Below are positions 1 to 11,102 of a stretch of DNA of 11,102 nt, piece after piece (position 1 is the stretch's first letter; every line of letters begins with the position of its first letter). Position numbers and translations under genes: made by a program. Source of the stretch: Verrucomicrobiales bacterium (GTDB lineage Bacteria > Verrucomicrobiota > Verrucomicrobiia > Verrucomicrobiales > DEV007); contig JALRFZ010000522.1 in NCBI GenBank assembly GCA_023253615.1, positions 1-11,102 of the forward strand, written 5' to 3'. The notes under the pieces are model-generated. The model saw nothing but the letters and a program-made list of their open reading frames with translations, was not told the origin of the DNA and ran no database searches.

Positions 1-217
1 ACCCGGCCACCACCGAAGTGACCAGTTGAAACCAGTCACTCTGGTCGGAGTTCATTTCCTCCTCACGTCCCCAGCAAGGCTCGAGCGCGGACATGGCGGC
101 TTCCAGATCGACCTCGTCGTGGATGGGGCGAGGCAGCCATCGGTCGCGGCACAAGGACACATAATCCTTGGGCATCTTTTCAAACGGCACCCCGGCGATG
201 TTGGATCGGGTCTTCAT
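1..217 (-). CDS. higA: HigA-type antitoxin, N-terminal part (runs off window)
   Basis: Antitoxin partner of the HigB toxin; in this family it binds and neutralises the toxin and represses the operon. The ATG lies at 217-215 and 72 codons are visible before the left edge. The protein begins MKTRSNIAGVPFEKMPKDYV and contains LCRDRWLPRPIHDE (about residues 22-35), then an acidic stretch and DQSDWFQLV (about 58-66). The CR..LPRPIHD motif followed by an x-DQ-D-hydrophobic segment is typical of the N-terminal half of HigA antitoxins; the helix-turn-helix would lie beyond the edge and is not seen. Its ATG overlaps the higB stop in an ATGA (214-217), so the two are translationally coupled, toxin first, the usual higBA order. 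Family assignment is by motif memory; it fits the neighbour well. Confidence 0.8.
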   Translation of the reverse strand, partial: MKTRSNIAGVPFEKMPKDYVSLCRDRWLPRPIHDEVDLEAAMSALEPCWGREEEMNSDQSDWFQLVTSVVAG

Positions 218-522
218 AGGTGGTTCTTCCAGGTATCTTTGGAGTATTCAGCATGGGTTAAAAAGGCGAGCGCGAACGCCACCTGCGTGTTGAAATGAAT
301 CGCTGCGATGAGCCGGTATTGGTTTCCCCCGATGTTGAAAACGACCATGTTTCGTCCGCTGGCCACTTTCACGAGATCCGCCGACGGCAGCGTCCGACGG
401 AGTTCGGAAAAACTCCGCCAACGCCCCCCTCGCATCAGATCGAGCCAAAATCTCAACCCGGACCGAGCGCCGGGATGGCTTTCCATCCACTCTTCAATCG
501 TGGCGGGCTTGATGACTCTCAC
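214..522 (-). CDS. higB: HigB-type mRNA interferase toxin
   Basis: Toxin of a type II toxin-antitoxin system of the HigB family (RelE-like fold), which cleaves mRNA, generally on the ribosome. With the GTG start at 522 the protein is 102 aa, the usual size, and opens with the family's RVI segment. Recognisable blocks: an HPGA-R-GL-FW helix, RSFSELRRTLPSADLV (about residues 36-51), FNIGGNQYRLIAAIHF (about 62-77) and FLTHAEYSKDTWK near the C-terminus. An ATG at 570 would add 16 residues, but that extension is encoded by the palindromic operator and matches nothing in the family, so the GTG is preferred. No strong ribosome binding site is visible. higA follows with a 4-base overlap. Nothing in the reading frame suggests decay, so it is probably intact and active. 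Confidence 0.88.
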   Translation of the reverse strand: MRVIKPATIEEWMESHPGARSGLRFWLDLMRGGRWRSFSELRRTLPSADLVKVASGRNMVVFNIGGNQYRLIAAIHFNTQVAFALAFLTHAEYSKDTWKNHL

Positions 523-534
523 GGCATCAAAGAT

Positions 535-561
535 TCCAGATTCTGGACAATTTGTCCAGAA
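535..561. promoter_or_regulatory. Tripartite palindromic operator upstream of higBA
   Basis: A perfect 10-base inverted repeat with one central base, TTCTGGACAA-T-TTGTCCAGAA (541-561), overlaps a second inverted repeat, TCCAGA-T-TCTGGA (535-547). Together they form three alternating half-sites: TCCAGA 535-540, TCTGGA 542-547, TCCAGA 555-560. The block sits 12-39 bases upstream of the preferred GTG start of higB. HigA antitoxins repress their own operon by binding palindromes in this position, so this is the likely autoregulatory site. The repeats are seen directly; the binding protein is inferred. No convincing -35/-10 pair could be fixed around it. Confidence 0.72.
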
Positions 562-683
562 TGAATCCACCGCATGTTTCCTGGCGGGTTTTGCCTCACA
601 TCGACGGACTCAAGGCCGCCGAGGGCGGTAATGGCCTCCTGCATCCGCGGGCGTATGACACGCTGAACGAGATTCCGGAGTGA
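562..683. other. Short intergenic stretch between higB and the 476-aa gene
   Basis: About 120 bases between the higBA operator and the end of the large minus-strand gene. A small plus-strand frame (561-683, ATG to TGA, 40 codons) ends exactly where the minus-strand gene ends, in TGATCA, but its peptide is not recognised and no ribosome binding site precedes it. A short GC-rich inverted repeat (CCGCC-GAG-GGCGG, about 625-637) has no T-run on either side and is not a convincing terminator. Any promoter for higBA should lie here. Confidence 0.4.
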
Positions 684-2114
684 TCAGGGTGCGGGGGCTT
701 TCGACGCGTTCGTATCGAAGAGTTTCTGCAAGCCTGGGTTTTCTCCGAAATATGGCTCGGCGCCGGCGCGCCCGAAGGCGGCGAGGGATTCATCCCCGTA
801 TTGTCGGCCGAGCCGCCACACCGTGTGGTAGTTCCATCCCGAGGCAGGATAACGCGAGACGAAATCGCGCGCCCGGCGCACGACCTCCTCTTCTTTCACG
901 AATCCGCCCGCGTTGAACATCGCCAACCCTCTGACCACCTGGGGGCGCTCCGAATCGCCGGGCAGCGGTTCTTCAAAAACGCCGATCAAGCTCCATCTCG
1001 CCTCTTCATCCCAGTCCCGGCACTGCCTCGCCAGCACCGCGATGGCACCGCCGAAAAGATTGGCATGAAAGCCTTCCGAGTCGCGATAACGATCGAAATC
1101 GAGACCCTCGAAATCACTCCAGGTCCAGTTGCCCGACTTGTTGGGAACGCGCTCGATCATTTCAAGCGCGATATGGAGCGGATACATTCTGGAATCCCGA
1201 CGGACCATCCGGTACAGCCCCGAGATATCCCTGCCCGACGGCTCCAGTTCGCGAAATGGCTCCGTTGAGAAACAAAGCTCCTTGATGGCGTCTCTCTGCT
1301 CTACGGTGATCTCCAATCCGAGAAGTGCGCGTCTCCAGAGGTGATACTCCAGAACCTCGAAGGCATGCACCGGCCTGCCGGAGGATTCCCACTGTCCGGA
1401 TTCGGACAATTCGGCCAGGTGGCACCGGATTTCCCGGCAATCCCCATGCGTCAAATTCGCATCGAAATCCAGAAAGGGCAGGATTTCCCGATAGTAGTCG
1501 CTGGTGGCGGACTCCCGCAGGAAGGCGACCTTTTCCGGCATCAGTGCCGGGGCGCCATACAAGCCTCCCAGCAAGACCGTGGTTTGCCGTTCCAGCCTCT
1601 TGTTGGAAAAGTCGGCAGCTTCGAAAGGCAGCGCCAATTCACGCAGGTCATCCTCGTATTTCGTGATGTGTGACGGCGAATACGGCCACCGGAGATTCAC
1701 GTAACTCAGGGATCCGTAGACCGGAAGATGATCACGCAGCCCCGACAAGCAGACCGATACGTAGATCCAGAGTTCATCGCCTTCGGGAAACGCCTCCCGG
1801 AATTTCGCCAATGCCGGAGAAGCGAGATCACTCCGCTTCATTCCCTTCGGGATCCCGTAGTCGAGTTCATCCGCGCGGGCTTCCATCAACTTCCTCGCAG
1901 CCTCAACCTCACCTTTCAGGGCGAGTTTCCAGACCCGCTCCGTCACGGGCAGGGAGGAGTTCGTCAGGAGGTTTTGTGTCTCGGAAATCCCTTTTGAATA
2001 TGGCAGCGCCCGGGCCTGCAACTCGCGGAGGGATTTGAAACCAAAGTCATCGAGGCCCGGCCACGGCGCTTCGAAAACAATGGCCTGCAATCTTTCGAAG
2101 AGCGGCCGGATCAT
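684..2114 (-). CDS. Hypothetical protein, probably helical, second of a pair
   Basis: Not recognised. From the ATG at 2114 the protein has 476 aa, with no signal peptide or membrane segment, and is rich in Leu, Glu, Arg and aromatics in amphipathic stretches, suggesting an all-helical, perhaps repeat-type, cytoplasmic protein. No catalytic signature was seen. The start is uncertain: an in-frame ATG at 2168 would add 18 residues (Ser/Pro/Arg-rich, not coding-like), and both starts lie inside the preceding 866-aa frame. From 2114 the overlap is 68 bases. G/C at third positions is visibly higher in this frame than in the other through the overlap, which supports real coding from about 2114. The pair may be an overlapping operon or one gene broken by a +1 shift. 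Codon use is mixed (CTC, CTG, TTG, ATT), unlike the CTC-dominated genes to the right. Confidence 0.7.
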   Translation of the reverse strand: MIRPLFERLQAIVFEAPWPGLDDFGFKSLRELQARALPYSKGISETQNLLTNSSLPVTERVWKLALKGEVEAARKLMEARADELDYGIPKGMKRSDLASPALAKFREAFPEGDELWIYVSVCLSGLRDHLPVYGSLSYVNLRWPYSPSHITKYEDDLRELALPFEAADFSNKRLERQTTVLLGGLYGAPALMPEKVAFLRESATSDYYREILPFLDFDANLTHGDCREIRCHLAELSESGQWESSGRPVHAFEVLEYHLWRRALLGLEITVEQRDAIKELCFSTEPFRELEPSGRDISGLYRMVRRDSRMYPLHIALEMIERVPNKSGNWTWSDFEGLDFDRYRDSEGFHANLFGGAIAVLARQCRDWDEEARWSLIGVFEEPLPGDSERPQVVRGLAMFNAGGFVKEEEVVRRARDFVSRYPASGWNYHTVWRLGRQYGDESLAAFGRAGAEPYFGENPGLQKLFDTNASKAPAP

Positions 2115-4647
2115 CCGGCCGTGTTTCCGCCTCGGCGATGAGGTCGGTGAAGATCCGGACGAATTCATGCGACTCGAAATACTCCCGCCGCTCCATGATT
2201 TCGATCGCTTGCCGGGCCTCCCAGACGAGCAGACGCGCGACCTCCTCCTTGGTGAAATCCCGTCCGTCCGGATGTCGGGGAGGACGTCGGTTTCTCCAAT
2301 ACACGACGGGATTTCTCAGAAAGAAGCGGCGTGCCCCGGGAGAAGCGGTTTCGAAATCCCTTTCGAAGGCATCAAGATCGAAGGTCTTGTCGAAGGATTC
2401 CTTGATCACCTCCCTTACCCACGAATGTTCCGTCAGTTCGAGAATCCCGCTGAGCTGCTCCGGTCGCTTGTCGAGGTTGGGAAATCGATCGTTTAACAGA
2501 TTCCTCAGAATCCAACGCCGCAGCGGGTGTTGACCGAAACGGATGTGGCAGCCATCAATGATCTCAGCCGGGTCCGCGGCGATGTCGCGGTAGAAAAACG
2601 CGAATGTGGCCGGCCATGAATAAAGCTCAGACCGCTTGTCCGCGAGAACCGCACCAAGCCAGTCAAGGTGATCCGCGACATTTTCCTCTCCCAGACCGCG
2701 ATTCATTTCCTCGTAGATTTCGTGAACCAGCCTCACCATGTCCACATCGGGATTCCGCGCGTGGTGATCCTCGATCCTGTCAAACATCCATCCAACGGCG
2801 TCCTCCCAACGTCTCGCCTCGATGAATCGTCGCCCCACCCAGACACCGAGGTACGTCCCGGCCGGTTTCGAGTTGCCACGTCCCACCCCCAGAAACTCCT
2901 CGAGCCGATCCAAGCCGTGTCCGGCAGTCTCGTCCTGTGGAAGGCTGCGGATCAAACCCACCACGGTTCCTTCCAACGAAGGGAGCTCGGACATGGTGAC
3001 AAAATTCCGGAAGTATTTGCTCCAGACTTCGTAGCCGCTCTCATCCCTGTCAAAATCACCGCGGACGACACGGTCCACCACCATCTCGGGTGTCACCGCC
3101 CCCCGCCACTTGTCGAAACACGGACGGGCGGCCGCAAAGAATTCATCGGTCATCTCCACGACCAGGGCCACGGTCCGCTCGAGCAGATAGGGATTGAAAG
3201 TCTCCGCCTCATTGAGCATTTCGATGGCTGCGAGCACCTCCCGCTTCGCCGCGTCCTCTTCCGGGGTCCGGTGAAGATTCCTCATCGCCGTGATCCCGAG
3301 TTCAAGCCGGATGAAGCCTTTTACCTGGTCCTCGTTCGAATGCTCCCTGATGCGCTCACCGAGGGCGAGGTATTCATCGAGCTTTTTGGCCTTTTCCTCC
3401 TGATAAGTCTCCTTCTGGCTCCGGATGGAATGCAGATCCCCTTTCGCCCCCTCGATCAGGGCGCAGACCGCGGCGTAATGGCCCGCGTCGATGAAATGGC
3501 CAATCCAGAACGAACGATGCGGCACCTGATCGCCCCAGATCTCCAAAGCCCGGTTCAGCAACCCCTCCGCATTCACCGAATGACAAAGCCAGACGAAGTC
3601 GGAGCCGACTTCGTTTCCAATCCAGCTTTCCAGATCCGGTTCGGGATCGATCTTCGAGAGAAGGATCCCGGCGACGAAATTCCAATCGGACGCCAGCTTC
3701 GACCCCTCCTTCGTGATTTCCCGGACAAGGCTGCTGGCGCACTCCTTGGCGAAGGCCGGTTCGGTTCGCCGGAACTCTTCCAGCAGATCGCCGATCGTCG
3801 CGCGATGATGCTTCCGCCATTCCTCGCTCTCCCGTCCGAGGGCGAGCCAGGTGAAAACCCCAAGCCTGAAAGATCCGACCCGCGCATCCTTCAGGATCCG
3901 GGCCGGCATTCCCCAATCGGCCTCCGGGAATCCGCCGGTTTTCCATTCGGACACCAGGGCACCATGGGCACGCTCCGGCGGGACGCCGAGGTCTCCCATC
4001 ACCAGGTAAAGGAGAGCCTCCGCCCCGGGATCCGTCTCCTCCACCAGCGCCCGCGCGAAACCGGCGGGTGTCAGGGCGTAGAGTTCGTAGATTCGCTGGA
4101 GCGACGCCATCCGATGCGAGCCCGGCTGATGAGCCTGCTCGAACTCCCGCAAGGTCCTCACGATCGGGGCCAGTTCGTCCAAGGCACCGCTGCGATGGGC
4201 GCTCCTCGCGATCGTCAGTTCCCACGTGGCAAAGCCGGCCGCGTCCGCCCGCACCAAGGCCGCCTCCAAACGTTCCGCATCGGCGCCACCCGTCATTTCC
4301 TCCAGCGACTTCCGCACGTGAGGCCAGGTCGGTTGCAAACCCGGCGCGATCCCCCCGGTCGAATCCCTCCATGAGGCGACGGCCACCGCGTAATCCGCCT
4401 CCACCGGCAGCTCCCCGGTGAGCCGCCGATCCCGCTCCCGTCGCGCGTTGGCGAAATAGGTGATGCCGAATCGATTCGCCCACATTTCGAGCCGGCTTCC
4501 GGCCACCCCTCCATGCCGCCTCGCCGCGAGCCATTCCTCGTATTTTTCCCCGGGAGTCGGAGCCACCGAACGGAAGACCAGCCACACCGCCAGCCCCCAG
4601 AAGAGCAACAGGCCGAAGACCAGAACCGCTTTTCCCGATCGTGTCAT
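2047..4647 (-). CDS. Hypothetical membrane-anchored large helical protein
   Basis: Not recognised. The 866-aa product starts MTRSGK followed by one hydrophobic helix (about residues 8-27, AVLVFGLLLFWGLAVWLVF), so it is probably anchored in the inner membrane with the rest on one side. The remainder is charged and helix-rich, with recurring patterns such as ALxRA, LEEFRRTEP and ELYAL that resemble a degenerate alpha-solenoid (TPR/SEL1-like), though no clean repeat period could be drawn. No nuclease, protease or nucleotide-binding motif was found. The ATG at 4647 is the first in frame, lies right after a good promoter, and places the membrane helix at the N-terminus. The 3' end overlaps the 476-aa gene by 68 bases in another frame, so the two are probably co-transcribed or are halves of one protein. 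A role in envelope or surface assembly would be a guess. Confidence 0.8.
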   Translation of the reverse strand: MTRSGKAVLVFGLLLFWGLAVWLVFRSVAPTPGEKYEEWLAARRHGGVAGSRLEMWANRFGITYFANARRERDRRLTGELPVEADYAVAVASWRDSTGGIAPGLQPTWPHVRKSLEEMTGGADAERLEAALVRADAAGFATWELTIARSAHRSGALDELAPIVRTLREFEQAHQPGSHRMASLQRIYELYALTPAGFARALVEETDPGAEALLYLVMGDLGVPPERAHGALVSEWKTGGFPEADWGMPARILKDARVGSFRLGVFTWLALGRESEEWRKHHRATIGDLLEEFRRTEPAFAKECASSLVREITKEGSKLASDWNFVAGILLSKIDPEPDLESWIGNEVGSDFVWLCHSVNAEGLLNRALEIWGDQVPHRSFWIGHFIDAGHYAAVCALIEGAKGDLHSIRSQKETYQEEKAKKLDEYLALGERIREHSNEDQVKGFIRLELGITAMRNLHRTPEEDAAKREVLAAIEMLNEAETFNPYLLERTVALVVEMTDEFFAAARPCFDKWRGAVTPEMVVDRVVRGDFDRDESGYEVWSKYFRNFVTMSELPSLEGTVVGLIRSLPQDETAGHGLDRLEEFLGVGRGNSKPAGTYLGVWVGRRFIEARRWEDAVGWMFDRIEDHHARNPDVDMVRLVHEIYEEMNRGLGEENVADHLDWLGAVLADKRSELYSWPATFAFFYRDIAADPAEIIDGCHIRFGQHPLRRWILRNLLNDRFPNLDKRPEQLSGILELTEHSWVREVIKESFDKTFDLDAFERDFETASPGARRFFLRNPVVYWRNRRPPRHPDGRDFTKEEVARLLVWEARQAIEIMERREYFESHEFVRIFTDLIAEAETRPDDPAALRKIAGHCFRSAVAGPR

Positions 4648-4707: not shown

Positions 4708-4791
4708 TCAGAATCCACCCGAATCACGCGACCCGCGCGTCCCATCCGCTGCCGCCTCCTCGAATACCCCCGCATCCGGCAACCTTCCCTC

Positions 4792-4827
4792 TTGATCTAA
4801 TTTCCATAAAAATTATATTTAATGGAA
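4792..4827 (+). promoter_or_regulatory. Promoter with inverted repeat ahead of the flippase gene
   Basis: A -35 box TTGATC (4792-4797, 4 of 6) and a -10 box TATATT (4814-4819, 5 of 6) are spaced by 16 bases in a sharply AT-rich island within GC-rich DNA. The start site would fall near 4826, leaving only about 10 bases of leader. A perfect 6-base inverted repeat, TTCCAT (4802-4807) and ATGGAA (4822-4827), brackets the -10 box and could be an operator. The boxes are visible; regulation is inferred, and a 6-base repeat in AT-rich sequence could be chance. Confidence 0.5.
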
Positions 4828-4834
4828 TTTTTTC

Positions 4835-6325
4835 ATGTCCACCGCCGACCGCACGCCTTCCGGGACCGCTGCGCACCGTGACCGTTCCCTGCGGCTCGCG
4901 GTGGTGACTTCCTTGATTTCGAAGGTCGGGACGATCGTGTTGCGGCTCGTCTCGATCCCGATCGCGGTGCATCTCCTCGGCATGGAGATGTTCGGCGTCT
5001 ACACGGCGATCACGATGGCCGTGGGCATGATCGACATGCTCCACATCGGGATCGGACCGGCCCTGACCAAGGCCCTCGCGAAGGCCGTGGCCCGCGGCGA
5101 CCGCGAGACGGAGCGCACCGTCTTCGGCACGAGCATCCTTCTCAGCCTGGGACTCACGGCGGTCGCGGCGATCACCGCCCTGCTCCTCCTTTTCAACGTG
5201 CCCATCCCGGAGCTGTTCGGGGAAAAATTCGCCCCGATGCAGGAGACGATGTTCCGCGTTGCGCTCCTCGGGCTCGTCATCATCCAGATCGAGATGATGT
5301 GCATCCCCTTCGAGATGGGGCGCGACGGGTATCAGGAAACCCGCTTCACGAACGCCTGGGGAGCGGCGGGAATTGTCTTCGGCGCCCTCCTCCTCCTCGG
5401 CGGGATCTGGTTTTTCCCCACGATCGAATTCCTCCTCATCGCGGTGAACGGATCGATCGCCCTCGCGAAACTCGGCAACACGATCCACCTCCTCACCCAG
5501 CGCCCCTACCTCTTCCCCCGTTTCTCGCTTTTCCGGAAATCCCTCGTGCCCACCCTCGCCCGCGACGGGATCCGCTTTTCGATCACCTACATCCTCGCGG
5601 CGGCGGTGGAATACAACCTGATGGCCTTCCTCATCGGCCGTCACGTGGGTCCGGAGGCCGTCGGGGTGTGGAACGTGATGATCACCGTGCATTTCTCGCT
5701 GACCGGCCTCGTCGGGATGATCACGAAACCCTACTGGCCCGCCCTGATGGACGCCTTCGAGCGCCGCGATCACCCTTGGATCGTGCGCAGCTCGAACCGC
5801 CTCCGGCTCGGGGGGCTCAGCTTCTCGCTCTTCGCCGCCTCGGGTCTCATCGCCCTGGGGCCCTGGGGCATGCCCCTCTGGGCGGCGACGGAATTCCACA
5901 CCGCGGTGCCGGAGGCTTTCCTGATGGACCGCCTCGCCCTCATCGCCTTCGCCGCCTATTTCGTCGTGCACATCTGGCGGCACATCAACCAGACCCTCGC
6001 CCTCGGGGTCGGCTGGGTCTCGCCGGTGGCCGCGGTGGTCGTCACCGAGGCGGTCGTGCTGATCTCGGCGGCCTCGTTCGTGCTCCATCACGAAGGCGGC
6101 ATCGGCACGATCTACCTGACGATGGGGGGATCGATCGTGCTTTTGTCAGGATGGCTTTTCCCGCTCTTTTTCCGCAAGGGCCGCACCACGGCCACCCGTC
6201 TCGATGGCCACAAGGAGGGCGAATGCATCCCACCGGAGAATCTCCCGGCGGAGCGGATCCATTTCACACGAAGCGCAGGAACGCCTCCGGCAACGGAGCT
6301 TCAAAGCGGAGGAATTCCCCGCTGA
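4835..6325 (+). CDS. Polysaccharide/lipid-linked oligosaccharide flippase (Wzx-like, MOP superfamily)
   Basis: Polytopic inner-membrane protein of 496 aa, the usual length for Wzx/RfbX-type transporters that flip undecaprenyl-linked sugar units to the periplasmic face. After a short polar N-terminus come about a dozen hydrophobic helices, starting near residue 20 (LAVVTSLISKVGTIVLRLVS). Family features include the N-terminal K-x-G-T-x-V-L-R-L segment, LLGMEMFGVYT (typical of helix 1-2 loops in this family: L-G-x-E-x-F-G-x-Y) and the later YWPALMDAFERRD. The final 35 or so residues are polar and partly encoded antisense to the end of the pseudouridine synthase gene, a 62-base convergent overlap. 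The ATG at 4835 is 15 bases after the -10 box; a weak GGA lies 8-9 bases upstream. No glycosyltransferase neighbours are present, so the substrate (O-antigen, exopolysaccharide or other) cannot be told. Confidence 0.87.
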   Translation: MSTADRTPSGTAAHRDRSLRLAVVTSLISKVGTIVLRLVSIPIAVHLLGMEMFGVYTAITMAVGMIDMLHIGIGPALTKALAKAVARGDRETERTVFGTSILLSLGLTAVAAITALLLLFNVPIPELFGEKFAPMQETMFRVALLGLVIIQIEMMCIPFEMGRDGYQETRFTNAWGAAGIVFGALLLLGGIWFFPTIEFLLIAVNGSIALAKLGNTIHLLTQRPYLFPRFSLFRKSLVPTLARDGIRFSITYILAAAVEYNLMAFLIGRHVGPEAVGVWNVMITVHFSLTGLVGMITKPYWPALMDAFERRDHPWIVRSSNRLRLGGLSFSLFAASGLIALGPWGMPLWAATEFHTAVPEAFLMDRLALIAFAAYFVVHIWRHINQTLALGVGWVSPVAAVVVTEAVVLISAASFVLHHEGGIGTIYLTMGGSIVLLSGWLFPLFFRKGRTTATRLDGHKEGECIPPENLPAERIHFTRSAGTPPATELQSGGIPR

Positions 6326-7211
6326 CGGGATGCCGGAAGGCGAGGCGGCGCGCGTGCAGCATGAGCCGCCCGGTCTTCACCTTCTGCCGGGGCACGTGGG
6401 CGTAGATCGTATCCCCGAGGATGGGGCAGCGCAGCACTTCCTTGAGATGCACGCGGATCTGGTGGGTGCGTCCCGTGTGGATGACGCATTGCAGGGCCGC
6501 CCAATTCTCCCGGGCATCGGACCGCAGCACCCGGTAGTCGGTGACGGCTTCCTTGCCCGCCGGGTCGGGGACGACGGCCATCTTCTGCCGGTTCACGGGA
6601 TGCCGGCCGATCCGGGTCTCGATCGTTCCTTCGTCCTTCGCGGGGATGCCCTCGGTCACGGCGAGGTATTCCTTTTCCGTCTCGCGCCCGGAGAACTGGG
6701 CGACGAGGGAATGGTAGGCCGCCTCGCTCTTCGCCGCGACCAGGCAGCCGGAGGTCTCCTTGTCGAGCCGGTGGACGATGCCGGGACGGTCCTCGCCGGC
6801 GAGCGCGCAGAGTTTCCCCTGACAATGATGCAAAAGCGCGTTCACGAGGGTGCCATCGGGATTGCCCGATCCGGGATGGACGACGAGCCCGGGAGGTTTG
6901 TCGATGACGATGAGATCGTCGTCCTCAAAGAGGATGGAAAGGGGGATCTCCTCCCCGAGCAGCCCGGCCGGGCGATCCGGCTCGATCCTGACAAACACCT
7001 CATCCCCCGCCGCGACGGGATGGCTCGGCTTCACCCGGCGGCCGCCGACGAGGACGCCTCCGGATTTGACGAGATCCTGCACCGCGGCGCGGGAGAGATC
7101 CCGGCCTGTCGAAAGGAGCGCCGCAGGCAGGTACCGGTCGAGCCGGTCACCCGAAGCGGACGCCGGAACGATGAGGCGGTATTCCGCCGGGTTCTCCTCA
7201 TCCTTCCCCAT
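6264..7211 (-). CDS. rluD: RluA/RluD-family 23S rRNA pseudouridine synthase
   Basis: Converts uridines of 23S rRNA to pseudouridine. The 315-aa protein has the standard layout: an N-terminal S4 RNA-binding domain (GDRLDRYLPAAL to AAGDEVFV, about residues 21-74), then the catalytic domain with LIVIDKPPGLVVHPG (about 100-114), the signature HRLDKETSG (147-155) with catalytic Asp150, and the RTHQIRVHL motif nearer the C-terminus. The layout matches RluD rather than RluC, but exact target uridines cannot be read from sequence. The frame is open much further upstream, but that extension overlaps the hydrolase gene out of frame and is low-complexity; the ATG at 7211, 5 bases after the hydrolase stop (7217), is the sensible start. 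The spacing implies co-transcription. The 3' end overlaps the flippase gene tail to tail. Confidence 0.93.
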   Translation of the reverse strand: MGKDEENPAEYRLIVPASASGDRLDRYLPAALLSTGRDLSRAAVQDLVKSGGVLVGGRRVKPSHPVAAGDEVFVRIEPDRPAGLLGEEIPLSILFEDDDLIVIDKPPGLVVHPGSGNPDGTLVNALLHHCQGKLCALAGEDRPGIVHRLDKETSGCLVAAKSEAAYHSLVAQFSGRETEKEYLAVTEGIPAKDEGTIETRIGRHPVNRQKMAVVPDPAGKEAVTDYRVLRSDARENWAALQCVIHTGRTHQIRVHLKEVLRCPILGDTIYAHVPRQKVKTGRLMLHARRLAFRHPVSGEFLRFEAPLPEAFLRFV

Positions 7212-7216
7212 CCCGT

Positions 7217-8374
7217 TCAATCCAGCTTCGGGGTGTAGATGGGGATCTTGAAATTCGGCCGCAGATCGTCGATCATCTGCCGGGTCGAGAGGTTCTTGTA
7301 TCGGGACAAGGGCACGAGGACGAGCTCGCTCTCGGAGCCGATCTCCGCCTTCGCCGCCCCCGTGAGCTTGCGTCCGAAGACGATGCCCCGGGCGATGCGG
7401 ATCTTGTCGAAGGGGTAGTTGCCGCGCAGATCCTTCACCACCTGGTATTCGTAGAGGCCGAGGGCGTTGGCGTAATCCAGCTCGGCCGGATTTTCGATCC
7501 CCGATTTCGCCTCGAGCCGGATGCGCAGGGCGACCTCGCCGGGGAGATCCGCGCTTTCCGAGCCGCCGCCGTTTCCGGGATCCGCGAAACGCTCTTTCGG
7601 CGGACTCTGCAGGGGCACCGCCCTGACAAACACTTTCGGCGCCACCGGCGGGGCGACTTTCATGAACTCGTTGAAATGCGAAGAGACCTTCTCCGCCCAC
7701 CCCCGCGCCTCGGCCGGGCCGTAGTGGATGCCGTCGGTCGCCGGATAGGGATCGACGAACTTCGTCACCTTCCGGCTTTCGAAGACGGTGCCCTCGTATC
7801 GCCCCACCACCTCGCGCATGATCGAAGCCAGCTCCTCCTGCAGCTCGCTCGTGTAACGCTCCTCATGGGAATGGGGCGGCAGCACCCAGTAGGAGACGGC
7901 GCCGGCTTCGGCGATGGCATGGCACATCTGGTCGATCAGGCACCGCACCTGGGCGACGTTCTCCTCCTTCGGCTGGCGCTTCGAGCGCAGGGTGGCGTAG
8001 AGATTGATCCCCGTCTGCACCACCACCACGTTCGGCTTGGTGCCGGCCATGAGATCCTCGATCTTCGGCACGGCGCGCACGTAGCCGACGCGGCGCTCGC
8101 TCGCCTCGGACTTTTCCCAGAAACCGATCATACACGGCAGGGCCTGGTAGTTTTTCAGCCAGTAATAAGGGGTGGCCCCTCCCGCGACGACGGTGTGGAC
8201 CTGGAATCCGGAAGACCGCATCGAAGAATCCAGCGTCTGCCCGAAAGCTCCGATGCTGAGAGAATCGCCGAGATACAAAATGCGGGCCTTGCCATCGCCA
8301 GCCTCCGAACCCGCGGAGAGCCAGAGCGGAACAAGCAGGAGGCTCTTCCCCAAAAATGCACGCAGTCGATTCAT
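7217..8374 (-). CDS. Secreted SGNH/GDSL-family hydrolase with C-terminal extra domain
   Basis: Putative secreted esterase or acyl hydrolase of 385 aa. The start at 8374 gives a signal peptide: basic NRLRAFLGK, hydrophobic SLLLVPLWL, probable cleavage near residues 22-26 (SAGSEAG). Starts upstream of 8374 would bury it. SGNH blocks are all visible: GDSLS with nucleophile Ser38, a block II glycine around GGATP (65-69), TGIN (121-124) with the oxyanion Asn124, and DGIH (214-217) giving Asp214/His217. A Pro/Gly/Ser-rich linker (about 243-280) leads to a C-terminal region of about 100 residues that I do not recognise. The substrate is unknown; such enzymes often deacylate cell-surface polysaccharides, which would fit the nearby flippase, but this is a guess. 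The pseudouridine synthase follows after 5 bases. Confidence 0.85.
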   Translation of the reverse strand: MNRLRAFLGKSLLLVPLWLSAGSEAGDGKARILYLGDSLSIGAFGQTLDSSMRSSGFQVHTVVAGGATPYYWLKNYQALPCMIGFWEKSEASERRVGYVRAVPKIEDLMAGTKPNVVVVQTGINLYATLRSKRQPKEENVAQVRCLIDQMCHAIAEAGAVSYWVLPPHSHEERYTSELQEELASIMREVVGRYEGTVFESRKVTKFVDPYPATDGIHYGPAEARGWAEKVSSHFNEFMKVAPPVAPKVFVRAVPLQSPPKERFADPGNGGGSESADLPGEVALRIRLEAKSGIENPAELDYANALGLYEYQVVKDLRGNYPFDKIRIARGIVFGRKLTGAAKAEIGSESELVLVPLSRYKNLSTRQMIDDLRPNFKIPIYTPKLD

Positions 8375-8381
8375 GGTCCGA

Positions 8382-8445
8382 GATTTACACGAAATCCGAC
8401 CCCAGATCAATCGCGAGATTCGCGCTTTCTATAATTTTCGCGATT
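8382..8445 (-). promoter_or_regulatory. Inverted repeat and candidate promoter upstream of the hydrolase
   Basis: The 105-base gap between the sigma-factor and hydrolase genes is AT-rich and holds a perfect 8-base inverted repeat, AATCGCGA (8409-8416) and TCGCGATT (8438-8445), separated by 21 bases that contain TATAAT/ATTATA. Read on the minus strand, a TTGATC box (8410-8405) lies 17 bases before TAAATC (8387-8382, only 3 of 6), which would put the start at the ATG itself. The repeat is clear; its use as an operator and the promoter call are weak inferences. Confidence 0.35.
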
Positions 8446-8479
8446 TTGAAAGACCTTTTTGCAAATTTTTAACCAAAGA

Positions 8480-9190
8480 TCAGAGTTCGAGGCCTGCCGC
8501 GCAGAGTTTCTGGAAGTCCTCCCACTCGAGCTGCAGCCGGTCGTCGGCCTCGCGGATGCGCTTCATCGTCTCGGTCGCGATCTGTTGGCGGGCGGAGGTG
8601 AGGGTGCGGCTGACGCGGGTCTGGTCGCATTGCCACATCCGCGCGATGGCCGCCTGGCTGATGCCATGCAGATAGGAGAGCTTCAGCATCAGGAGGACCT
8701 CCGGCCCGAGCGAGTCGAAGGCCTCGCGGATGGCACGGGCCATCAGTTCGGAGAGATCGCTGTCGAGGAGGTTCTCATCGGGATCCACTCCCGCGACCCG
8801 GTCGAATTGATCGCCCGAGCGTTCGTCGTCATCGTCGTAGGAGGGCAGCTCGCCACGGAATTTGTCGCGCCGTTTCAGATCGAGCCAGCGATTCCACGTG
8901 GTGCGGATCATCCAGGTCGAAAGGGAGGAGCGGCCTTCGAATTTCTCCAGCAGCGGCCGGGTTTGGCCGTTCTTGCCCGCCCCGAAACACTCGGCCACGA
9001 TGTCGGCGACGAGATCTTCCGCCTGGACCCGGTCGACTCCGCGCGACATGAGGACCCGCTCCAGCATCGGCCGGTAGGTATCCTGGAACTCACGCACCGC
9101 CACCGGCTCGCCGGCGATGGCACGATCCACGAGATCGAGATCGGCGGCGTATTTCAGCGGCTTGAGTTCGGAGCTGGGACCGTTCGTCAT
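8480..9190 (-). CDS. Sigma-70 family RNA polymerase sigma factor (ECF-like)
   Basis: Alternative sigma factor of 236 aa that would direct RNA polymerase to a specific promoter set. Region 2 spans about residues 17-110: a helix with AGEPVAVREF and TYRPMLERVL, then VQAEDLVADIVAECF (core-binding D-x-x-x-x-x-F type helix) and LSTWMIRTTWNRWLDLKRR (the -10 recognition helix). An acidic spacer (YDDDDERS) leads to region 4 (about 155-205): FDSLGPEVLLMLKLSYLHG, then the helix-turn-helix ISQAAIARMWQCDQTRVSRTL. No region 1 or 3 is present, matching ECF-size factors, though it is long for the class. The ATG at 9190 is preferred over an in-frame TTG at 9199. No anti-sigma gene is adjacent. Targets are unknown; the hydrolase and pseudouridine synthase lie downstream on the same strand but after 105 bases. 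Confidence 0.85.
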   Translation of the reverse strand: MTNGPSSELKPLKYAADLDLVDRAIAGEPVAVREFQDTYRPMLERVLMSRGVDRVQAEDLVADIVAECFGAGKNGQTRPLLEKFEGRSSLSTWMIRTTWNRWLDLKRRDKFRGELPSYDDDDERSGDQFDRVAGVDPDENLLDSDLSELMARAIREAFDSLGPEVLLMLKLSYLHGISQAAIARMWQCDQTRVSRTLTSARQQIATETMKRIREADDRLQLEWEDFQKLCAAGLEL

Positions 9191-9197
9191 GAGGAAC

Positions 9198-9227
9198 AAT
9201 CTAACTACGGGCGCGACGAATGATCAA
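9198..9227 (-). promoter_or_regulatory. Candidate promoter of the sigma-factor gene
   Basis: On the minus strand TTGATC (9227-9222) is followed after 18 bases by TAGATT (9203-9198, 4 of 6). The start would be near the ATG at 9190, giving almost no leader. Weak by itself, but the same TTGATC box stands ahead of two other genes here. The rest of the 135-base divergent gap (9191-9325) shows a GGAATCC direct repeat (9241-9247 and 9254-9260) around TCCCG-TC-CGGGA (9245-9256); no convincing plus-strand promoter was found. Confidence 0.3.
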
Positions 9228-9325
9228 CCATGGATTGGGAGGAATCCCGTCCGGGAATCCTGACATCCAAACCCCTCCGCGGTTGCTCCCCTCCCCCACC
9301 CGTGCTAACCGTGGCCTCTTTCGAA

Positions 9326-9631
9326 ATGACCGGCATCCAAGACATCCAGCTCATCGGCGATCTCGTCGCGATCCGTTGGGCCGACGCGGGCGAGACCTAC
9401 CATCGCATGGACCGCCTCCGCTCCCTCTCGCCCAGTGCCGAGACCTCGGGCGAGCGCGACCTGCTCGGGAGCGAGCTCGTCGCCACCGACAAACACCGCG
9501 ATTTCAGCGGCGTGACCGTCATCGGATGGAACGCCGTCGGGAATTACGCCATCCAATTCCGCTTCTCCGACGGCCACAACACCGGTCTCTACTCCTACGA
9601 ATACCTCCGCGAGATCGCCGACGAGATCTGA
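9326..9631 (+). CDS. DUF971 family protein (GBBH-like N-terminal domain)
   Basis: Small soluble protein of 101 aa belonging to the DUF971 family, the stand-alone form of the N-terminal domain of gamma-butyrobetaine hydroxylase-like enzymes; its cellular role is not established, and links to iron or iron-sulfur handling have been suggested for the domain. Seen here: an early LVAIRWADAG strand pair, the middle GERDLLGSEL, and the strongly typical C-terminal motif DGHNTGLYSYEYLR (82-95). The frame is open from 9230, but residues before ATG 9326 are Pro/Ser-rich and outside the family; a GTG at 9311 would add five residues. There is no clear ribosome binding site. purB begins 34 bases downstream, so the two are probably co-transcribed. 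Confidence 0.85.
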   Translation: MTGIQDIQLIGDLVAIRWADAGETYHRMDRLRSLSPSAETSGERDLLGSELVATDKHRDFSGVTVIGWNAVGNYAIQFRFSDGHNTGLYSYEYLREIADEI

Positions 9632-9665
9632 TCTCCCAACTTTCTTACCTTTTACTCCCCGTCAG

Positions 9666-10637
9666 ATGATCCCCAACGTCCTAGCCGAACGCTACGCCAC
9701 CGCCGCCATGAAGGCGGTCTGGTCCCCCGAAGGAAAAGTCCGCCTCGAGCGCGAGCTCTGGATCGCGGTGATGAAAGCCCAGCGCGATCTCGGTCTCGAC
9801 ATCCCCGCGGAGGCGATCGCCGCCTACGAGCGGGTCGTCGATCAGGTCGATCTCAATTCGATCGACGCCCGCGAGCGCGTCACCCGCCACGACGTGAAGG
9901 CGCGCATCGAGGAATTCTGCGATCTCGCCGGACACGAGCACGTCCACAAGGGCATGACGAGCCGGGATCTCACCGAGAACGTCGAGCAGCTCCAGGTGCA
10001 CCGGGCCCTCGGCGTCATCCGCGTCACCACCGCCGCCGCCCTCCACCGGCTCGCGAAACGGGCCGGTGAATTCCGCGGGCTCGCCATCACCGCCCGCACC
10101 CACAACGTCGCCGCCCAGGTCACCACCTATGGCAAACGTCTCGCCATGTTCGGCGAGGAGCTGCTCCACGCCGCCCGCAAACTCGATGAAACGATCGCCG
10201 GCTATCCCGTGCGCGGCTTGAAAGGCGCGGTCGGCACCCAGCTCGACCAGCTCAGCCTCTTCGACGGCGATTCCGCGAAGGTGCTGGAGCTCGAGCGCCG
10301 ACTCGCCGCCCACCTCGGCATCGGGAATCTCTTCACCAACGTCGGCCAGGTCTATCCGCGCAGCCTCGACTTCGAGGTCGTCGCCGTCTTGAACCAGCTC
10401 GCCTCCGCCCCCTCCAGCTTCGCGAAGACGCTCCGCCTCATGGCCGGGCACGAACTGGCGGGCGAAGGTTTCGCCAAAGGACAGGTCGGCTCCTCGGCCA
10501 TGCCGCACAAGATGAACAGCCGCAGTTGCGAGCGCGTCAACGGATTCAAGACCATCCTCGGCGGCCACCTCGCGATGGCTTCGGCCCTCGCCGGCGACCA
10601 ATGGAACGAAGGCGACGTCTCCTGCTCCGTCGTGCGG
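9666..10637 (+). CDS. purB: Adenylosuccinate lyase, C-terminus replaced at a chimeric join
   Basis: PurB of the fumarase/aspartase superfamily acts twice in purine synthesis, splitting SAICAR and adenylosuccinate with release of fumarate. The 324 residues present follow the mycobacterial-type PurB closely: IPNVLAERYA at the start, RHDVKARIEEF, HVHKGMTSRDLTENVEQ (about 95-111), ARTHNVAAQ with catalytic acid His146, GQVYPRSLD, the superfamily signature GSSAMPHKMNSRSCERVNG (275-293; catalytic Ser in the SS pair at 276-277), and QWNEGDVSCSVVR ending at 324. In relatives the next residues are a second Arg and an ALPDAFFA helix, with about 150 more residues completing the protein. Here the frame instead continues as a transporter permease, so the helical bundle and C-terminal domain are incomplete and the product as written could not be a normal lyase. 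The open frame runs 479 codons from 9666 to the window end. Leucine is almost always CTC (29 CTC, 3 CTG). Confidence 0.92.
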
Positions 10638-10640
10638 CAG
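10629..10640 (+). other. Seam between purB and the permease segment
   Basis: The codons for Val322-Val323-Arg324 (10629-10637, GTCGTGCGG) fit both families: PurB has ...CSVVR-R, and ABC-3 permeases have ...V-(V/L)-R-x-G/Q-x-F-A-x-H-A-L at the end of an early helix. The join therefore lies within a few bases of 10637, with short homology of roughly 10 bases possible. Such microhomology is common at assembly or amplification chimeras. The exact breakpoint cannot be fixed from this sequence alone. Confidence 0.7.
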
Positions 10641-11102
10641 GGCACTTTCGCGGCTCACGCGCTGGGCCACATCGGACTGCCCGGGGCCACCGGCGCGGTC
10701 CTGCTGGGCGTGTCACCGGTGCTGGGCCTGGGTGTCTTCTGTGTCGGCGGCGCGATCCTCATCAGCGTGCTCGGCCAGCGCGCCTCCGAGCGTGACATCG
10801 TCACCGGGACGGTGCTGGCCTTCGCGACCGGGCTGGGGCTGTTCTTCAACTCCCTTGCCACCAAGAGCTCGAGCACCATGACCAACGTGCTGTTCGGCAA
10901 CCTGCTCGCGGTGACCCGGGGCCAGCTCGTCGCCTTCGCGGTCCTACTGGCGCTGCTGGCCCTGTGCATCGGGGTCTCGTTCCGGCCGCTGCTGTACAGC
11001 TCGGTGAACCCGCCGGTCGCCGAGGCCAAGGGGGTGCCGGTCCGGGCGCTGTCCATCATGTTCATGCTGGCGCTGGCGGTGGCGGTGACGATGGCCGTGC
11101 AG
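10638..11102 (+). CDS. ABC-3 family metal transporter permease, internal fragment
   Basis: Membrane permease of a zinc/manganese-type ABC importer (ZnuB/MntB/TroB family). The 155 codons visible lack their own start (perhaps 50 residues missing upstream) and run off the right edge. Diagnostic features: QGTFAAHALGHIGLPGATGA, the conserved x-F-A-x-H-A-L-x-H-x-G-x-x-G-A segment of this family, at the very beginning; a hydrophobic helix GVSPVLGLGVFCVGGAILIS; the charged loop QRASERDIVTG; the F-N-S-L...TNVLFGN-LLAV region; then further helices (LVAFAVLLALLALCIGV and IMFMLALAVAV). Leucine is almost always CTG (20 CTG, 4 CTC), and GTG and GCG are frequent, unlike every gene to the left; this suggests a high-GC, perhaps actinobacterial, source. 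It is in frame with purB, but a real fusion of the two is biologically implausible. Confidence 0.85.

Follow-up and report, generated by a model that had tools for sequence, protein, structure and literature searches.

Misassembly that joins fragments from different sources is a recognised error of metagenome-derived genomes and, according to the GUNC paper, such chimeric misassembly is relatively rare in comparison with mis-binning (PMC8201837). Adenylosuccinate lyase (PurB) normally comprises 472 residues in the related genome G014, and the ABC-3 permease in L029, the actinobacterial locus that best matches our sequence, is an ORF of 287 residues. In the window analysed here, by which we mean the whole stretch of 11,102 bases, parts of these two kinds of protein are encoded in one frame. 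The window makes up exactly the length of its contig (C720), so that the window's end is also the contig's end, and it belongs to a draft genome (5.0 Mb, 802 contigs) that is 84.73% complete and 4.65% contaminated. We consider the apparent fusion to be almost certainly a chimeric contig end, that is, an assembly or library artefact, and the hybrid frame very probably does not encode a novel fusion protein. The preliminary description had likewise called it a chimeric join, and this is supported by the two origins of the halves, by the purB tail found on contig C74 and by the absence of the hybrid from the relatives searched. The features concerned are as follows.

9666..10637, + strand: 5' part of purB (adenylosuccinate lyase), 324 codons, the host's own and genuine
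10628..10638, + strand: seam interval, bases that either parent could have supplied in a base-by-base, ungapped comparison
10638..11102, + strand: interior of an ABC-3 metal permease, 465 foreign bases of actinobacterial (mostly mycobacterial) type

The ORF at 9666-11102 on the + strand has an ATG start, extends over 479 codons and is still open at the window's end. Pfam places Lyase_1 at residues 33-293 (5.5e-22) and ABC-3 (PF00950) at residues 322-479 (6.4e-24, model positions 27-185 of 258), and NCBIfam TIGR00928 (purB) covers residues 6-328 (2.5e-86, model 1-319 of 436). ORF and domain matches together thus confirm the earlier account of a single uninterrupted frame that runs from PurB, up to residue 324, into the interior of an ABC-3 permease. 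The PurB part ends after WNEGDVSCSVVR (residue 324) and QGTFAAHALGHIG comes next. Residues 2-324 appear as an ordinary PurB in a search against solved structures (best match 3.9e-127). As a PurB the hybrid scores 290.1 bits, below the curated cut-off of 326.2 that TIGR00928 sets for a functional member, and as a permease its partial coverage of the ABC-3 model falls short of the full membrane-helix set of a functional protein. That the first membrane helix of the permease is missing, as had been proposed, holds true: in L029 the entry point is preceded by 47 residues that include a hydrophobic stretch. The permease is also truncated by the contig end, with 155 of about 287 residues present. 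Base composition is uninformative, as a GC3 of 0.88 for the PurB half versus 0.94 for the permease half does not clearly separate the two.

In 26 of the 32 genomes of the same genus, the PurB half finds a match that spans from residue 1 up to the seam (76-94% identity), and every one of these 26 alignments stops at residue 325 or 326; as for the exceptions, PurB is matched in pieces in G030 and G032 and is without a match in G003, G009, G018 and G027. Some match to the hybrid query was obtained in 54 of the 55 related genomes. All eight same-genus loci inspected continue with R(V/I)MLPDAF(F/Y)A in the place of the window's QGTFAAHALG. Ahead of the seam, positions 4780-10636 of the window (5.9 kb) are collinear with G014 (85.5%) and with G001 (75.4%); the last 148 codons of the gene as found in G014 are absent from C720. 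A second purB was sought in the window's genome and gave weak matches only (81.5 bits on C654 and 70.4 bits on C91), presumably lyase superfamily members of another kind.

The stretch that is collinear with G014 also contains a gene for a 496-residue protein (4835-6325, + strand), which Pfam leaves unmatched up to E = 1 and which we take to resemble a polysaccharide-export type of membrane flippase. Two overlapping large genes for proteins of 494 and 866 residues, located at 684-4647 on the - strand, are without a match in Pfam (E up to 1) and in PADLOC (up to 0.1). This segment has no DNA match in the G014 locus, and relatives of the 866-residue protein occur, at 31% identity, in two of the 55 related genomes; the segment looks like a strain-variable island. 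The variable stretch is bordered by 82 bases (602-683) that are kept at 84-85% in G014 and G010, that are single-copy in the genome and that lie, in G014, about 66 bases from the counterpart of position 4780. Near the other contig end, a HigB-type toxin, as known from toxin-antitoxin pairs, is encoded at 214-570 on the - strand (Pfam HigB_toxin 7.5e-23, PADLOC PD-Lambda-2_A 1.8e-19), and the one frame examined beside it in 1-213 contains stops. The G+C content of positions 1-3500 is 0.56-0.62, and neither a tRNA nor an Rfam match was found in the window.

The permease half comes from elsewhere. It is 63-80% identical to 53 confirmed loci from a named-genome collection, all with actinobacterial titles, in a search that favours close relatives and whose 53 loci do not stand for all permeases. 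Forty of the loci are from Mycobacterium or Mycolicibacterium, and the other 13 are from Gordonia, Luteimicrobium (three), Propionibacterium, one genome labelled Bifidobacterium breve and seven unclassified actinobacteria. Among the 55 relatives of the host, identity to the permease half reaches at most 38% (G049). The expectation that the halves would differ in taxonomy is therefore borne out, the PurB half pointing to the host's own genus and the permease half to the Actinobacteria. In all 53 actinobacterial loci the frame reaches back beyond the seam point and includes there a hydrophobic stretch that the hybrid lacks, and no PurB match (E up to 1e-3) was found in the fetched loci. The window's genome holds no other copy of the foreign piece, the sole other match being about 42 bases long (E 9.4e-4); neither was the rest of the 8.5 kb of L029 found in it, save for three short matches (63-135 bases, 74-83%). 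The genome does have other ABC-3 permeases, one on C505 and two on C787; the C505 protein is 24% identical, and the C787 pair fell below the search threshold.

The seam was mapped by per-base agreement, without gaps, with eight purB loci and the 53 actinobacterial loci. The last base that is clearly purB-only is 10627 (8/8 purB versus 1/53 actinobacterial loci) and the first that is clearly permease-only is 10639 (0/8 versus 39/53), which confines the breakpoint to the 11 bases 10628-10638, in one codon phase for both parents. Each of the 11 bases is found in both sets, in some cases as a minority wobble base (10628 in 3/8 purB loci; 10637 in 1/8 purB and 9/53 actinobacterial loci). Past the seam, 10641 and 10644 agree better with purB (7/8 and 8/8 versus 3/53 and 1/53, respectively), and the bases at 10642 and 10646 are seldom seen in either set; we take these four to be the donor's own bases and the purB fit of 10641 and 10644 to be chance. 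Against three purB loci, 7-10 of every 10 bases are identical ahead of the seam and no more than 5 over the following 20 bases, and against five actinobacterial loci the value climbs to 6-10 within 20 bases of the seam.

But why would the frame stay open through the seam, unlike in most random joins, a property which counts against a chimera? Both purB and the permease gene encode VVR or a similar triplet at this point and do so in the same codon phase, and it is because of this common stretch that the frame is kept. The earlier proposal that short homology explains both the place of the join and the preserved frame thus finds support in the 11-base interval that fits either parent. For how many bases the two real parents agree is something that we infer, the closest donor match being only 80% identical.

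If the contig leaves the host's chromosome inside purB, the rest of the gene may lie elsewhere in the assembly. G014 DNA from downstream of the seam, used as a query, led to contig C74 (17,081 bases), which carries the matching DNA in reverse at its end. Read on the coding strand, C74 starts inside purB and holds the last 48 codons and the stop of the gene, followed by about 1.7 kb that are collinear with G014 at 85-90% identity. Relative to the 472 codons of G014, 324 are thus on C720, 48 on C74 and 100 (300 bases) on neither. A search of the genome for these middle 100 codons, which include the RVALPDAFFA-like segment, found nothing. The preliminary description had looked to another contig to continue purB with just this segment; such a contig does exist, with the last 48 codons and host-genus DNA behind them, and it is the segment itself that did not turn up.

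C74 matches all five relatives tried. In G008 and G001 a further part of C74 and the part downstream of purB are on one contig, on the same strand and in the same order, and in G008 the contig with both parts also carries purB. Beyond about 1.7 kb (C74 position 15340 or so) the next stretch of C74 matches another G014 contig at 90%, and the next stretch of G014 sits on C748 (11973-13716; contig of 24,651 bases). The order beyond this point thus differs between the strains, either by rearrangement or by an assembly fault in one of the drafts. On these alignments C74 is host-genus DNA that belongs behind purB, which would make C720 and C74 most likely neighbours and the 465 bases a false extension. 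The link that we infer is one across a gap of 300 bases within purB, which most likely separates the two contigs. The DNA just after purB in G014 (locus L083, about 11228-11407) consists of intergenic repeats that recur throughout the window's genome: of the 46 matches of the G014 downstream query, 44 are short fragments of this stretch, spread over many contigs. Some fragments match both strands at one place and are hence partly palindromic, and simple TACTC- and CTTTTAC-type repeats are also seen in the matches.

Were the hybrid a natural gene, the same fusion might be expected in independent genomes, and it was encountered neither in the genomes searched nor in the 53 actinobacterial loci. 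None of the 55 relatives has it, apart from weak overhanging alignments: some permease alignments already begin ahead of residue 324 (G053 287-476, G008 264-476 and, in the window's own genome, C505 248-477 are examples, at 24-26% identity), and in a few cases PurB alignments extend past it (for example G038 to 347 and G049 to 340). These we read as overhang because the open frames there have ordinary permease or PurB length. Nor is the hybrid among the matches listed for the 287 other genomes of the order (best 100.1 bits versus 423), the order-wide set of 288 genomes being a sample of a larger group, with five of the 288 giving no match at all. The earlier view of an artefact rather than a natural gene accords with this lack of a copy in the related genomes searched. 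In the literature searched, nothing related to a PurB-ABC permease gene fusion was found. A genuine fusion of PurB and permease that is expressed and has acquired a novel function, in favour of which the one open frame of 479 codons would speak, therefore has next to no probability in our estimate: its PurB would lack the last 148 residues, its permease the first helix and, outside the contig, the C-terminal part, its parts stem from different lineages, and no hybrid was seen in the searched host-side relatives or in the actinobacterial loci.

A true recent horizontal transfer of actinobacterial DNA into purB of one strain, with the gene split and its tail now on C74, deserves somewhat more attention, since a purB tail on a separate contig would be expected here too and the junction does sit within one contig. 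However, C74 ends inside purB, 100 codons past the seam, without foreign DNA there, and the rest of L029 is unmatched in the genome beyond the three short matches mentioned above. Such an insertion would moreover destroy the only strong purB candidate of the genome, and nothing like the hybrid is among the matches listed in the 287 other genomes of the order, so that we regard it as very unlikely. Mis-binning only, with the whole contig derived from another organism, might be thought of in view of the 4.65% contamination, but the 5.9 kb before the seam align collinearly at 75-86% to two genomes of the same genus, the missing purB tail is found within the same bin on C74, and foreign origin of the whole contig would leave the change of origin at the seam unexplained; we give this explanation hardly any credence. 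A chimeric contig end, by comparison, agrees with the different taxonomic origin of the two sides and with the presence of the true host continuation on another contig, C74.

How might such a contig end have come about? The source was presumably a metagenome that contained the window's organism, presumably a verrucomicrobium, together with a roughly mycobacterial actinobacterium, and the host's purB would have been a poorly assembled spot of low coverage. A chimeric fragment could then have arisen in library making, by template switch or ligation; an error in the assembly graph seems less likely. Eleven bases are shorter than the usual assembly words, and since the common stretch is below this length a fragment that became chimeric in the library, at a place of thin coverage, would be favoured. 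The short common stretch coding for VVR, in the same codon phase, may have favoured the join. The assembler would thereby have been led from purB codon 324 into the actinobacterial permease gene, the contig stopping 465 bases on, and the true chromosome most likely runs through 300 unassembled bases of purB into C74.

For practical purposes the hybrid should not be annotated as a fusion, even though automatic annotation could deposit a 479-residue protein with two valid domain hits. The appropriate correction is to cut C720 at about 10627-10638 and to treat C720 and C74 as probable neighbours across a 300-base gap in purB. With no more than 465 foreign bases, the join would probably escape contig checks that work on genes. 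The case also illustrates that a few codons common to two genes, here VVR, can preserve the frame across a join.

Taken together, the hybrid compares with known systems as two incomplete members of well-described families. Residues 1-324 are those of an ordinary PurB (TIGR00928) of the host genus, from which the hybrid differs by the missing last 148 residues and a score below the family cut-off. Residues 325-479 are 63-80% identical to ABC-3 permeases (PF00950) of the mycobacterial type, yet the piece lacks the first helix and the C-terminal part. In L029 the permease gene is preceded by what we presume to be ATPase and binding-protein genes, and it is in their place that PurB stands in the hybrid. 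Finally, C720 resembles the chimeric contigs described in the GUNC paper (PMC8201837) in that two source genomes meet in one contig, here with the foreign part at the contig end, and differs from them in that the join keeps an open frame, so that a gene caller would report a single hybrid.
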